The notes beneath the pieces were generated by a model that saw only the letters and a program-made list of their open reading frames with translations, was not told where the DNA came from and did not search any database. Positions 9,384 to 22,129 of a DNA stretch of 32,663 nt are shown piece by piece. The position numbers were made by a program, and so were the translations under genes. Source of the DNA: Pseudomonadales bacterium (lineage in GTDB: Bacteria > Pseudomonadota > Gammaproteobacteria > Pseudomonadales > Azotimanducaceae); contig JANQMF010000003.1 of the NCBI GenBank assembly GCA_028280225.1, positions 1 to 32,663 on the forward strand. Reading direction: 5' to 3'. The first letter of the stretch is position 1. Every line of letters starts with the position of its first letter.

Positions 9384-11468
9384 ATGACTGACCTAACGCG
9401 TTATCGGAACATCGGCATTTTTGCCCACGTCGATGCGGGCAAAACCACAACCACGGAACGTATTCTGAAACTGACCGGTAAGATCCATAAAATCGGTGAG
9501 GTGCACGACGGCGCGGCAACCACCGACTTCATGGAGCAGGAGCAGGAACGCGGTATTACCATCCAGTCCGCGGCCACCTCCTGTGAGTGGGCAGATCATC
9601 GTCTTAACATTATCGACACCCCCGGGCACGTGGATTTCACCATTGAGGTGTACCGCTCCCTCAAAGTTCTGGACGGGGGTGTGGGTGTCTTCTGTGGCTC
9701 CGGCGGTGTTGAACCTCAGTCGGAAACCAACTGGCGTTATGCCAACGATTCTGAAGTGGCGCGCATTATTTTTGTCAATAAGCTCGACCGCCTGGGGGCA
9801 AACTTCTACCGGGTGGTGGATCAGATCAAAGACGTGCTGGGCGCCAACCCGCTGGTCATGACCCTGCCCATCGGCGAGGAGGACAACTTTGTTGGGGTGG
9901 TGGATGTCCTCACCCAGAAAGCCTATGTCTGGGACGATACCGGCAACCCGGAAGCCTACGAAGTACAGGACGTGCCTGCTGACCTGGCGGACAAAGCCGC
10001 CGAATACCGGGAGGCGTTGATTGAAACTGCGGTTGAGCAGGACGACGACCTGATGGAAGCCTATCTGGAAGGTAACGAACCTTCTGAGGAAGATCTGAAG
10101 CGTTGTATCCGTAAAGGCACCATTAATCTGGACTTTTTCCCCACCTACTGCGGCTCTGCTTTCAAGAACAAAGGGGTGCAGAATATCCTCAACGCCGTGG
10201 TGGACTACCTGCCCAATCCCACCGAGGTTGACCCTCAACCCGAGGTCGACCTGGAAGGAAACGAAACCGGTGAGGTTGCCCACGTTGATCCCAACGGTCC
10301 GTTGCGGGCGCTGGCGTTCAAAATTATGGACGATCGTTACGGTGCCCTGACCTTTACCCGGATCTACTCCGGCACCCTGAGCAAGGGTGACAACGTGTTG
10401 AATACCTTCACCGGCAAAACCGAGCGTATTGGCCGCATTGTTGAGATGCACGCCGACTCCCGGGAAGAACTCGACTCCGCCCAGGCCGGCGACATTGTTG
10501 CCCTGTTGGGGATGAAAAATACCAAAACCGGGCACACCCTGTGTGACCCGAACAAACCGGCCACCCTGGAACCCATGGTCTTCCCGGACCCGGTGATTTC
10601 CGTGGCCATTGCCCCCAAGGATAAGGCGGGTGCCGAGAAGATGGGGATTGCCCTGTCTAAAATGGTACAGGAAGATCCTTCTTTTTATGTCGAAACCGAC
10701 GAAGAGTCCGGCGAAACCATCATGAAGGGTATGGGTGAGCTGCACCTGGACATTAAGGTGGATATTCTTAAACGCACCCACGGCATAGACGTTGACGTGG
10801 GCCGGCCTCAGGTGGCGTACCGGGAGACCATTACCCAACTTATCGAAGACAGCTATACCCACAAGAAGCAAACCGGTGGTGCCGGTCAGTTTGCAAAAAT
10901 TGACTACGTCATTGAACCCGGTGAGGTGGGCAGCGGCTACGAATTTGAGTCCAAGGTGACCGGCGGCAACGTGCCGCGGGAGTTCTGGCCGGCGGTGGAA
11001 AAAGCCTTTGGCCAATCCATGGAAGAAGGCACCCTGGCCGGCTTCCCCCTGCTGGATGTGAAGGTGACTCTGACAGACGGTGGCTTCCACCCGGTGGACT
11101 CCTCCGCCATTGCTTATGAGCTGGCGGCCAAGGCCGCCTACCGGCAGTCTGTGCCCAAGGCCGGGCCGCAACTGCTGGAGCCGGTGATGAAGGTGGATGT
11201 TTTTACCCCCGAGGACCATGTGGGCGATGTGATTGGTGATCTCAACCGCCGCCGGGGCATGATTAAGTCCCAGGAAGCCGGCGTGAGCGGGGTGCGGGTC
11301 AAGGCAGACTGCCCCCTGGGTGAAATGTTCGGCTATATCGGCGACCTGCGCACCATGACCTCCGGCCGTGGCCAGTTCTCCATGGAGTTTTCACACTACG
11401 CCCCCTGCCCCGCCAACGTGGCGGAGGACGTGATTGCTGAAGTGAAGGAGCGTAAAGCCAACGCCTAG
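9384..11468 (+). CDS. fusA2: Elongation factor G, second-type paralogue
   Basis: Translational GTPase of 694 residues. The G domain has [14 protein letters not shown] (G1), [10 protein letters not shown] (G2), DTPGHVDFT (G3) and NKLDRLG (G4). Later domains include [26 protein letters not shown], and the domain IV tip region [23 protein letters not shown]. It ends [25 protein letters not shown], wording typical of the standalone FusA2 of Pseudomonas, Vibrio and Shewanella. The surrounding genes are not rpsL, rpsG or tuf, so this is not the str-operon copy; a canonical fusA elsewhere is expected. GAGAAGAAAC precedes the ATG. EF-G2 paralogues may act in translocation or recycling under special conditions; the exact role is not known from the sequence. 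Confidence 0.9.
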
Positions 11469-19292: not shown

Positions 19293-20033
19293 ATGCGCGA
19301 CGACGAGCTATTGCGCTACAGCCGGCAAATTATGCTGCCGGACCTGGATATTGAAGGTCAGGAGAAGCTGCTTGCCGCCCGGGTGATGCTGGTGGGATTG
19401 GGAGGCCTGGGTTCTCCCGCCGCCCTGTATCTGGCGGCTGCCGGGGTGGGTACCCTGGTGCTGGTGGATGACGATGAGGTGGATTTGTCCAACCTGCAGC
19501 GGCAAATTGCCCACGGTGAGGCCACGGTTGGAGAAAACAAAGCCACCTCAGCCGCCCGGACGATCCACAATATCAACCCCCACACCGAATGTAAGATTGT
19601 CCAGCAGCGGCTGGACACGGCAAACGCTCAAACCCTGCTGCAAGACGTGGATGTGGTACTGGATTGCAGCGACAATTTCTCCACCCGCTTTTTGCTCAAC
19701 GACCTGTGTTGGGCCGCCGGGGTACCCCTGGTGTCCGGCGCCGCCATCCGCTGGGAAGGCCAGGTCACCGTTTTTGATGCCAACGTGGCTGACTCACCCT
19801 GTTATCGCTGTCTTTACCTCAGCGGTGACGACAACGCCTTAAACTGCGCGGAAAACGGTGTTGCCGCGCCACTGGTAGGTATTGTTGGGGCCACTCAAGC
19901 CATGGAGGCCCTGAAGATTCTGGCCCAGGTCGGAGATAGCCTGGTTGGCCGGATATTGGTCATCGACACAAAACACATGGACTGGCGCACCCTCGGCCTG
20001 GGCAAGCGCAAAAACTGTCCAACCTGCGGCTAG
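19293..20033 (+). CDS. moeB: MoeB/ThiF/HesA-family adenylyltransferase
   Basis: E1-like enzyme that adenylates the C-terminal Gly-Gly of MoaD or ThiS in sulfur-carrier activation. Protein of 246 residues. Seen: [19 protein letters not shown] with the arginine finger, [19 protein letters not shown] for [31 protein letters not shown], and two zinc CxxC pairs (CYRC and CPTC, the latter at the C terminus). It follows prmC by 3 bp, as in many gammaproteobacteria. Sequence alone does not separate MoeB from ThiF. The stop TAG shares the CTAG at 20030-20033 with the stop of convergent lipB. Confidence 0.9.
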
Positions 20034-20659
20034 CACTCAAGCTGATATTGGTCTATCAGCGCGGCAAAAAGCTGTTGTTTGACCACGGCTATATCAACCG
20101 CGGCAAAGTCCGCCATCTGGGTGACCTGCATGCCCAGCAAGCCACAGGGATTGATGCGTGAAAAAGGCTCCAGATCCATGCTGACGTTCAGACTGAGCCC
20201 GTGATAAGAACACCCGCGCCGGACCCGCAGCCCCAGACTGCCGATTTTATTACCCGCCACGTAAACCCCCGGCGCATCCGGGCGCGCCGCCGCGTTGATG
20301 CCGTATGCAGCCACGGTCTTGATCATGGACTCTTCGATGCCCGTAACAAGATCCCTGACGCCCAGGCGCATGCGGCGCAGATCAAATAACAGATAGGCGG
20401 TAATTTGACCCGGACCGCGGCGGCCAGGTGACCTACCACGGTCCGTCTGCACCACCGGAATATCACCCGGCGCCAATACATGTTCCGCCTTGCCGGATTG
20501 TCCCTGGGTAAAAACAGGCTGGTGTTCGGTAAACCAGATTTCATCAGGGGTTTGCGCGGTACGCTGCTCGGTAAATTCACGCATGGCGGCAAAGGTGGCG
20601 GCATACCCGGTGAGCCCCAGATCCCGCATCACTACCCGCACCCGGGATGCAGCTTCCAT
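20030..20659 (-). CDS. lipB: Octanoyltransferase LipB with an inverted motif segment
   Basis: Transfers octanoate from ACP to lipoyl domains. Protein of 209 residues, normal length. The catalytic pair is present: Lys138 in AGNKIGSLG and Cys172 in [19 protein letters not shown] is also normal. Residues 76-81, however, read RSPGRR where the family has [20 protein letters not shown] instead of [14 protein letters not shown]. The plus strand of these very bases encodes GGQVTYHGP, and perfect 7-bp inverted repeats flank the segment. The segment therefore looks flipped in place without loss of frame. As written, the substrate-binding loop with its conserved His is destroyed and the enzyme is probably impaired. 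The start lies 2 bp after the ybeD stop. lipA, often next to lipB, is not here; moeB converges instead. Confidence 0.93.
20411..20445. repeat. 7-bp inverted repeats bounding a flipped 21-bp segment in lipB
   Basis: The arms CGGACCG (20411-20417) and CGGTCCG (20439-20445) are exact reverse complements and enclose 20418-20438. Reverse-complementing the enclosed 21 bp turns lipB codons 74-81 into the canonical RGGQVTYH with no other change. Exact restoration of a conserved motif is hard to explain by chance. Confidence 0.92.
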
Positions 20660-20926: not shown

Positions 20927-22129
20927 TCATTCGCTGCCGAACAGCTCGCTGAAGAACAAACTCACAAAGTCCGTAAATTGCCCAATTAAGCCGGATTCCG
21001 GCACATCTTCCAACACCACCAGGGGTGCTGTGTACAGGGTTTTGTCGTGCAGCTTTAGCTTAAGTTCACCCATCTGTTCACCCTTGGACAGCGGTGCTTC
21101 GATCACCTTGGGAATTTCCAGCTTAACTTCTATGTCGTTGTAATAACCCCGGGGGAAGGTGACCACCACTTCATTTTCCACACCCAGGCCAACGGTATCC
21201 GCGTCCGCGTAGTAAACCGGCTGGTCCTTAAGGGCCACATCCGCTTCGTACAATGACTGTGTTTCGTAGTAGCGGAATCCGTAGGACAACAACTTTTGAC
21301 TTTCGCGCATGCGCGCCTGGTCACTGTCCGTACCCATGACCACAGAAATCAGGCGCATCCCCTCCCGGACCGCGGACGCCACCAGACAGTATCCGGCACT
21401 GCTGGTATAGCCGGTTTTAACCCCGTCCACCGTTTTGTCACGCCACAGCAGCTTGTTACGATTAGCCTGCTCGATACCGTTAAACTCATACGAGCGTTGA
21501 CTGTACAAGGCATAGTGTTGCGGAAAACGGTTGATCAAATCCCGGGTCAGCAACGCCATATCCCAGGCTGAACTATAGTGTTCCCGGTCCGGCAAACCGG
21601 TGGAATTGGTGAAATGGGTGTTCTGCATCCCCAACACCGCCGCCTGCTGGTTCATCATGTTGGCAAAAGCATCCTCGCTGCCGCCGATATGTTCCGCAAC
21701 CGCCACGCTGGCATCGTTGCCCGATTGAATGATGATACCCTTGAGCAAGTCCTCTATGGTGACCTTGGTGCCTTCCCGGATAAACATTTTGGAACCACCG
21801 GTACGCCAGGCGGCAACGCTGACCAGAACCTCGTCATTCATCTGGATGCGCCCGGCATCAATTTCCTGTTCAACCAGATAGCTGGTCATGATTTTGGTTA
21901 AGCTGGCCGGTGGGTTTTGCTCGTGGGCGTTGTACTCAACAATCACCTTGTCCGATTCGGCGTCGACAAGCAAATAGGAACTGGCCTGAATCTCCGGGGC
22001 GGGAGGAATAATGGGTTCCTGAGCTTGGGCCCCAGCCATGCTGCAAAGGACAATGAGCAACAGCACAACTTGCCCGGCAACGGGGAATGGGCTCGGCATG
22101 GGACGGTGGTTCATAAATTCAGCCATCAA
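20927..22129 (-). CDS. dacA: D-alanyl-D-alanine carboxypeptidase (PBP5/6 family)
   Basis: Periplasmic enzyme that trims the terminal D-Ala from peptidoglycan pentapeptides. Protein of 400 residues. The signal peptide VVLLLIVLCSMAGAQA is followed by cleavage near 37. Active site: Ser76-x-x-Lys79 in PASLTKIMTSY, Ser136-Gly-Asn in IIQSGNDASVA, and Lys238-Thr-Gly in DGVKTGYT. The C-terminal PBP5-type beta domain is followed by an amphipathic helix (IGQFTDFVSLFFSELFG) that usually anchors the protein to the membrane. The ATG at 22129 or at 22114 may be the start. Part of the envelope operon with rlpA (44-bp gap). Confidence 0.95.
   Translation of the reverse strand: MMAEFMNHRPMPSPFPVAGQVVLLLIVLCSMAGAQAQEPIIPPAPEIQASSYLLVDAESDKVIVEYNAHEQNPPASLTKIMTSYLVEQEIDAGRIQMNDEVLVSVAAWRTGGSKMFIREGTKVTIEDLLKGIIIQSGNDASVAVAEHIGGSEDAFANMMNQQAAVLGMQNTHFTNSTGLPDREHYSSAWDMALLTRDLINRFPQHYALYSQRSYEFNGIEQANRNKLLWRDKTVDGVKTGYTSSAGYCLVASAVREGMRLISVVMGTDSDQARMRESQKLLSYGFRYYETQSLYEADVALKDQPVYYADADTVGLGVENEVVVTFPRGYYNDIEVKLEIPKVIEAPLSKGEQMGELKLKLHDKTLYTAPLVVLEDVPESGLIGQFTDFVSLFFSELFGSE

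Follow-up and report, generated by a model that had tools for sequence, protein, structure and literature searches.

The lipB gene in the 32,663-nucleotide stretch of a Pseudomonadales draft genome that we analysed (the window) spells a conserved substrate loop backwards. How did 21 bp of a housekeeping gene come to be written in the opposite orientation, and did this happen in a living cell at all?

A reversed segment in lipB

The lipB open reading frame scores 282.8 bits against the NCBIfam profile NF010922 (E 1.3e-84), above the cut-off of 235, and also matches TIGR00214 (E 4.3e-54) and Pfam PF21948 (E 1.2e-27). It has the LipB profile match together with the catalytic Lys/Cys dyad, but the substrate loop RGG(Q/H)VT(Y/F)HGPGQ is absent as written. 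The relevant features of the window are as follows:

20030..20659, minus strand: lipB, lipoyl(octanoyl) transferase, 209 aa, with matches to NF010922, TIGR00214 and PF21948
20144..20146, minus strand: codon of catalytic Cys172 (Cys169 in E. coli), intact, C in 92 of 92 relatives
20246..20248, minus strand: codon of catalytic Lys138 (Lys135 in E. coli), intact, K in 92 of 92 relatives
20411..20417, plus strand: left inverted-repeat arm, CGGACCG
20418..20438, plus strand: inverted spacer of 21 bp, altering LipB residues 76-81 from GQVTYH to RSPGRR
20439..20445, plus strand: right arm CGGTCCG of the inverted repeat
20411..20445, minus strand: hairpin-forming quasi-palindrome with 10-nt arms, 90% complementary, and a 15-nt loop

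The observation itself is solid. The first-pass annotation had described the loop as an in-place inversion of 20418-20438 between the 7-bp arms CGGACCG and CGGTCCG, and both its coordinates and its reading are correct. We could also reproduce that reverse-complementing the spacer brings back the canonical loop peptide exactly, in frame and with all other residues untouched, and the frame is open in both orientations. The segment is the exact reverse complement of a canonical one and has inverted repeats at its edges, which are the marks of a microinversion. Its ancestral orientation is inferred from 109 lipB loci of relatives, none of them close enough to supply the ancestral DNA itself, and the restored orientation also fits the genome's raw codon frequencies better, by 5.6 natural-log units.

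A repeat search that allows imperfect arms extends them to 10 nt at 90% complementarity (20411-20420 and 20436-20445). The folding of the hairpin is modest and not exceptional: as single-stranded DNA, 20401-20455 reaches -12.2 kcal/mol on the minus strand (z -1.62; equalled or bettered by 16 of 200 shuffles) and -8.9 kcal/mol on the plus strand (z -0.52; 50 of 200 shuffles). The sequence of the arms is partly dictated by the conserved residues D-R and H-G-P.

Upstream of lipB and on the same strand lies an ORF that by eye resembles dacA (20927-22129), while lipA is found on a different contig (C29) and does not adjoin lipB. Elsewhere in the window, a 608-aa open frame on the minus strand (9393-11219) runs antisense to an ORF that by eye resembles elongation factor G (9384-11468) and is probably a by-product of codon composition.

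Comparison with relatives and with the rest of the genome

All 109 lipB loci of relatives that we read (L002-L110) carry the canonical motif (D/N)RGG(Q/H)VT(Y/F)HGPGQ. These loci comprise 29 from 58 whole genomes, of which 55 (this one included) contain a recognizable lipB, and 80 kept out of 204 from genome contigs, with some genomes present twice. Removal of duplicates and addition of two further loci, L112 and L114, leaves 92 distinct relatives, and in every one of them LipB residues 74, 75, 76, 78, 79, 81 and 82-85 are identical; the window deviates at 76, 78, 79 and 81. The possibility raised earlier that relatives share a conserved RSPGRR as an old variant finds no counterpart among the relatives read.

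Across the 45 LipB columns conserved in at least 97% of relatives, the window departs at four, all within the flip, and at 0 of the 41 outside it. The claim that the remaining gene is intact, including Lys138 and Cys172, thus holds, and both residues are invariant in the 92 distinct relatives. When each relative is left out in turn, departures have a median of 0 and reach at most 4, in L097, which has a canonical loop (gaps uncounted). The gene therefore shows no decay outside the flip, and since a count of four occurs elsewhere, it is the clustering in the loop that is striking.

Perfect arms of 5 bp flank only 3 of the 107 canonical motifs from L002-L110 that fit the DNA pattern, and none has longer ones; this count leaves out L112 (7 bp) and L114 (6 bp), both retrieved by a pattern that demands such arms. 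Arms as long as those of the flip are thus unusual, and a hairpin mechanism would be expected to act at just such a site. That pattern, our first for the inverted motif, matched 3 of 398 genomes, but L112 and L114 proved to be canonical genes, whose symmetric arms let the pattern match on the other strand. A second flipped pattern extended into GGNCCNGGNCA with up to 2 mismatches retrieved only this genome among 390 of the order (1/390); both patterns presuppose this arm phase, so that flips with other breakpoints would escape them. No second copy in either orientation was found in viral contigs, a result of little weight given that the collections may omit records near this genome.

In one congeneric genome (G005), lipB is split across two contig ends within the same motif (L266 on C47 and L267 on C233), and the canonical motif is readable across the two halves. 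Both ends run into sequence that resembles a Nextera/Tn5 adapter, with GTTACCTAC on both sides resembling a 9-bp target duplication.

Within the genome, we scored every in-place inversion of 9-90 bp in 889 kb of sequence against 1.6 Mb of a relative (G019). The comparison rested on ORFs that matched at 50% or better over 50 residues: 330 of them, spanning 71,133 aligned residues, when overlapping and antisense frames are counted, and 209, spanning 62,058 residues, when they are not. The lipB flip, with its 7-bp arms, ranks first at a gain of 43. The runner-up (gain 36, 1-bp arms) is ruled out as an inversion by its own reverse-without-complement control, which scores higher (41), and the next gain is 24. 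The best gain in the relative is 25, and the other controls reach 28, 23 and 22. The lipB flip thus exceeds chance.

A direct survey of non-overlapping coding regions for inverted repeats, with a minimum perfect arm of 7 bp and spacers of 6-40 bp, gave 427 cases, of which 366 would alter at least four residues if flipped (499 and 425, respectively, with overlapping and antisense frames). Only 4 of the 366 come closer to the relative when flipped, namely lipB, which goes from 2 to 8 of 8 matching residues, and three others that gain a single residue each. Among the 366 informative inverted repeats of the genome sample, lipB is the only clear microinversion, though this is a count and not a rate, the sample containing the window by choice.

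Lipoylation with a flipped LipB

According to the parts of PMC9307952 drawn on here, the loop of E. coli LipB comprises RGG at residues 71-73, with Arg71, Thr76 and His78 at lipoyl-contact positions of LplA, and the catalytic pair is Lys135/Cys169. The same source reports that the G72A/G73A double mutant keeps 39% of its activity and R71A 21%. Converted with a constant offset of 3 (the E. coli numbering comes from that paper, E. coli LipB itself lying outside our alignment), the window LipB retains Arg74, Gly75, Lys138 and Cys172, while the equivalents of Gly73, Thr76 and His78 have become Arg, Gly and Arg. Judged from these replacements, the flipped protein is likely a dead or badly crippled enzyme.

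A bypass enzyme (LplA or LipM/LipL) had been proposed as a check, and this search came back negative: Pfam PF21948, which covers LplA and LipB, has a single match in this genome (4.44 Mb, 96.7% completeness), and this is lipB itself. The control search was positive in 13 of 14 reference genomes. Of the 40 genomes searched from the genus, 37, counting this one, carry a single match, which for three of them (G465, G785 and G786) is assumed to be lipB; two genomes, 81% and 73% complete, have none, and G005 has the two pieces of its one lipB. With this profile, neither an LplA-type bypass nor a second gene of the LplA/LipB family was found in this genome or in the 40 of the genus. The genome does encode intact lipA (lipoyl synthase), gcvH (GcvH) and sucB (SucB), and with these present and no bypass in sight, a fixed lipB null should be very costly. 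It is difficult to see how a genome could stably keep lipoyl proteins without a means of attaching lipoate, except if the flipped LipB has retained function or an enzyme not seen in the genus is encoded in the 3% of the genome that is missing.

Assembly fold-backs and the origin of the flip

The assembly contains three contigs with one end that folds back within coding DNA:

11016..11325 of L181 (contig C116), its last 310 bases: fold-back with 92-bp arms in a ComEC family gene
1..78 of L168 (contig C71), its first 78 bases: fold-back with 30-bp arms at the end of the frame of an FAD-binding protein
18542..18636 of L152 (contig C28), its last 95 bases: fold-back with 25-bp arms in the frame of an MFS transporter

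In L181, positions 421-725 of the ComEC-family profile match on the minus strand and the neighbouring positions 392-446 back on the plus strand, while the short plus-strand piece in L152 (28 aa) gave no family match. We read these three ends as chimeras, since the reading frames continue on one strand only, though natural inverted repeats can also form contig ends. As such, the fold-backs are a flag on the quality of the assembly. Perfect inverted repeats of at least 20 bp occur at 4 of 128 contig ends versus 4 of 2516 internal 300-base windows (Fisher p 3e-4), the latter tiled without overlap and hence splitting some internal repeats. A repeat family with the core TGGGGTCAGACCCCA accounts for all four internal windows and for one of the ends (L282), and its removal leaves 3 of 128 ends versus 0 of 2516 internal windows (p 1e-4). 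The full listing for 880 kb holds 11 repeats with arms of at least 20 bp, seven from this family and four, including two in L181, at contig ends. In 18 loci from other genomes, the inverted repeats at either end do not exceed 10 bp; roughly half of these ends are true contig ends. Lowering the threshold to arms of at least 16 bp gives 14 inverted repeats in 880 kb of this genome versus 3 in 1.6 Mb of the relative, but most of these represent the one family and were set aside.

This palindromic family, with the core TGGGGTCAGACCCCA or near variants, is scattered over the genome, often as inverted pairs, and we assume from its appearance that it is REP-like. Six of the eight places tested (all those below except L282) lie outside stop-free frames of 100 codons:

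15646..15731 of L154
2579..2719 of L118
9385..9507 of L118
15800..15877 of L120
5035..5126 of L152
18401..18551 of L169
9374..9450 of L161
4594..4661 of L124
1..92 of L282

At the level of single bases, the quality of the assembly looks good, and given the single frameshift-like break in 177 gene pairs we reject an error-riddled assembly as a general cause (this set includes antisense frames, and a further ten alignments carry an internal stop). The N runs in the sample are four whole contigs below 3 kb and not scaffold gaps, and none of three adapter sequences was found in the genome sample. In a k-mer test, canonical reads plus one fold-back chimera per side suffice to cover the written sequence completely up to a k of 36, so that at small k an assembler could produce the flip even if no molecule had it. 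From k of 37 upwards, fold-back reads cease to yield the written path, and an assembler that reaches large k would therefore need a molecule with both junctions.

We regard the lipB flip as probably, if only just, an artefact of amplification, library making or assembly, and lean towards such an origin in the tube over a one-off real mutation. The mechanism is likely a double template switch at the quasi-palindrome: at the first arm, a growing strand would leave its template for the opposite strand, copy the spacer backwards off it and return to the original template at the second arm, leaving a microinversion. This could take place during DNA amplification or library making, or fold-back chimeric reads could collapse into one contig path during assembly; either way, the event would have happened outside the cell, and the living organism probably has a normal loop. 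The fold-backs elsewhere in the assembly and the lack of a visible bypass enzyme strengthen this reading. Precedents exist in that sheared libraries contain inverted chimeras at short complementary stretches, at low frequency (described in the part of PMC10908179 used here), and that 406 of 475 chimeras from multiple displacement amplification (MDA) were inverted (PMC1855051), though the latter study assigns hairpin self-priming and template switching only a minor part and finds that its chimeras carry deletions. Against an artefact, the flip lies 12 kb inside a 32.7-kb contig and not at a weakly covered end, so that the consensus would have had to settle on artefact reads, and the other 365 informative inverted repeats show no further clear inversion. 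The otherwise clean sequence and the lack of the three adapters in the sample also count against it. Its place in the interior of a clean contig and its being a single event rather suit a real template-switch microinversion that reached high frequency or fixation in the sampled population and left LipB dead or weak, an origin that we hold to be plausible yet somewhat doubtful. The undecayed remainder of lipB is what a recent event would leave, and the anatomy is that of the 59 human-chimpanzee microinversions of 17-33 nt, all of them with inverted repeats of 3-75 nt, in the portion of PMC8755829 considered here; spacer inversions are also known within yeast genes (PMC8604942, in the sections used), where they arise by intermolecular template switching and are sometimes reversible. 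Conversely, these yeast inversions are described only with arms of more than 9 bp and short spacers. PMC8755829 finds that template switching does not easily account for short or imperfect repeats and proposes break-induced replication instead. A real event would also replace the equivalents of E. coli Gly73, Thr76 and His78, and lipoylation should stop where neither 4.44 Mb at 96.7% completeness nor 40 genus genomes offer a second LplA/LipB-family match.

A flipped protein that is still an active LipB, and hence an old and tolerated variant, would sidestep this cost. It would fit with the retention of Lys138, Cys172, Arg74, Gly75 and every other column of at least 97% conservation outside the flip, and with the 21-39% of activity held by the E. 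coli loop mutants in the cited part of PMC9307952. Yet Gly76, Val78, Thr79 and His81 are each found in 92 of 92 distinct relatives, conserved columns elsewhere show no departures that might compensate, and the other strand of the spacer still spells the canonical peptide letter for letter, as it would for a young event; we consider such a variant very unlikely. Slightly less likely still is an intragenic switch able to turn LipB on and off reversibly. The arms are perfect, the flip is in frame, both states are open, and yeast spacer inversions of a few bp flip back and forth (per the same sections of PMC8604942). Yet no relative read is in the flipped state, the arms are not conserved (5 bp at 3 of 107 canonical motifs and never more, L112 and L114 excluded), and switching off a sole housekeeping enzyme would serve no obvious purpose. 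At 21 bp, the segment is too short for known invertases, and PMC8755829 argues, in its part used here, that segments below 33 bp cannot loop for recombination between their repeats. Least credible of all is the extension of this idea in which a hairpin with 7-bp arms would flip the sole lipoylation enzyme without a recombinase and create a reversible, stochastic, dormancy-like LipB-off subpopulation; if true, 2-oxoglutarate dehydrogenase, glycine cleavage and other lipoyl enzymes would be shut down in these cells. Of the three options that the first-pass annotation had offered, the geometry of a hairpin-driven template switch thus stands and an artefact gains support, while the invertible on/off LipB is unsupported, with no flipped relative, unconserved arms and a segment that is too short.

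In form, the sequence is a microinversion and so belongs to a known kind; if it is an artefact, it is no biological feature. Were it real, it would be a clean bacterial case of a single template-switch event that rewrote six active-site loop residues without a frameshift, and the fate of an organism without working LipB or LplA would become testable. Were it an artefact, it would illustrate that an in-frame microinversion in a draft genome can pass for an exotic variant, and contig-end fold-backs would offer a cheap flag for such assemblies.

Among known systems, intragenic invertons have reportedly been described in gut bacteria by Chanin et al. in 2024, and like the lipB case these are in-frame, recoding flips within a gene between inverted repeats. 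Intragenic invertons need a recombinase as well as longer repeats and segments, whereas lipB shows no sign of two states. The human-chimpanzee microinversions are similar in anatomy to the lipB flip, as in the part of PMC8755829 drawn on here they are pure inversions with arms that touch their edges, the 21 bp of lipB fall within their range of 17-33 nt, and its 7-bp arms belong to their commonest class (4-7 nt, 28 of 59). Unlike this set, the lipB flip affects a bacterial housekeeping coding sequence, is seen in one assembly only and is possibly not real. The yeast cases, as given in the sections of PMC8604942 used, share with lipB the inversion of a spacer between perfect arms, in frame within coding sequence, but they have arms above 9 bp, short spacers and 2-5 substitutions that replace up to two residues, compared to the shorter perfect arms, the longer 21-bp spacer and the six replaced active-site loop residues of lipB. 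Fold-back or inverted chimeras, as the excerpts of PMC10908179 and PMC1855051 describe them, form at short complementary stretches and continue as the reverse complement beyond the junction, as in lipB, and fold-backs also occur at ends of contigs in the present assembly. Chimeras usually contain a single junction, while the lipB contig has both, so that two chimeras or a double switch would be needed to write it.
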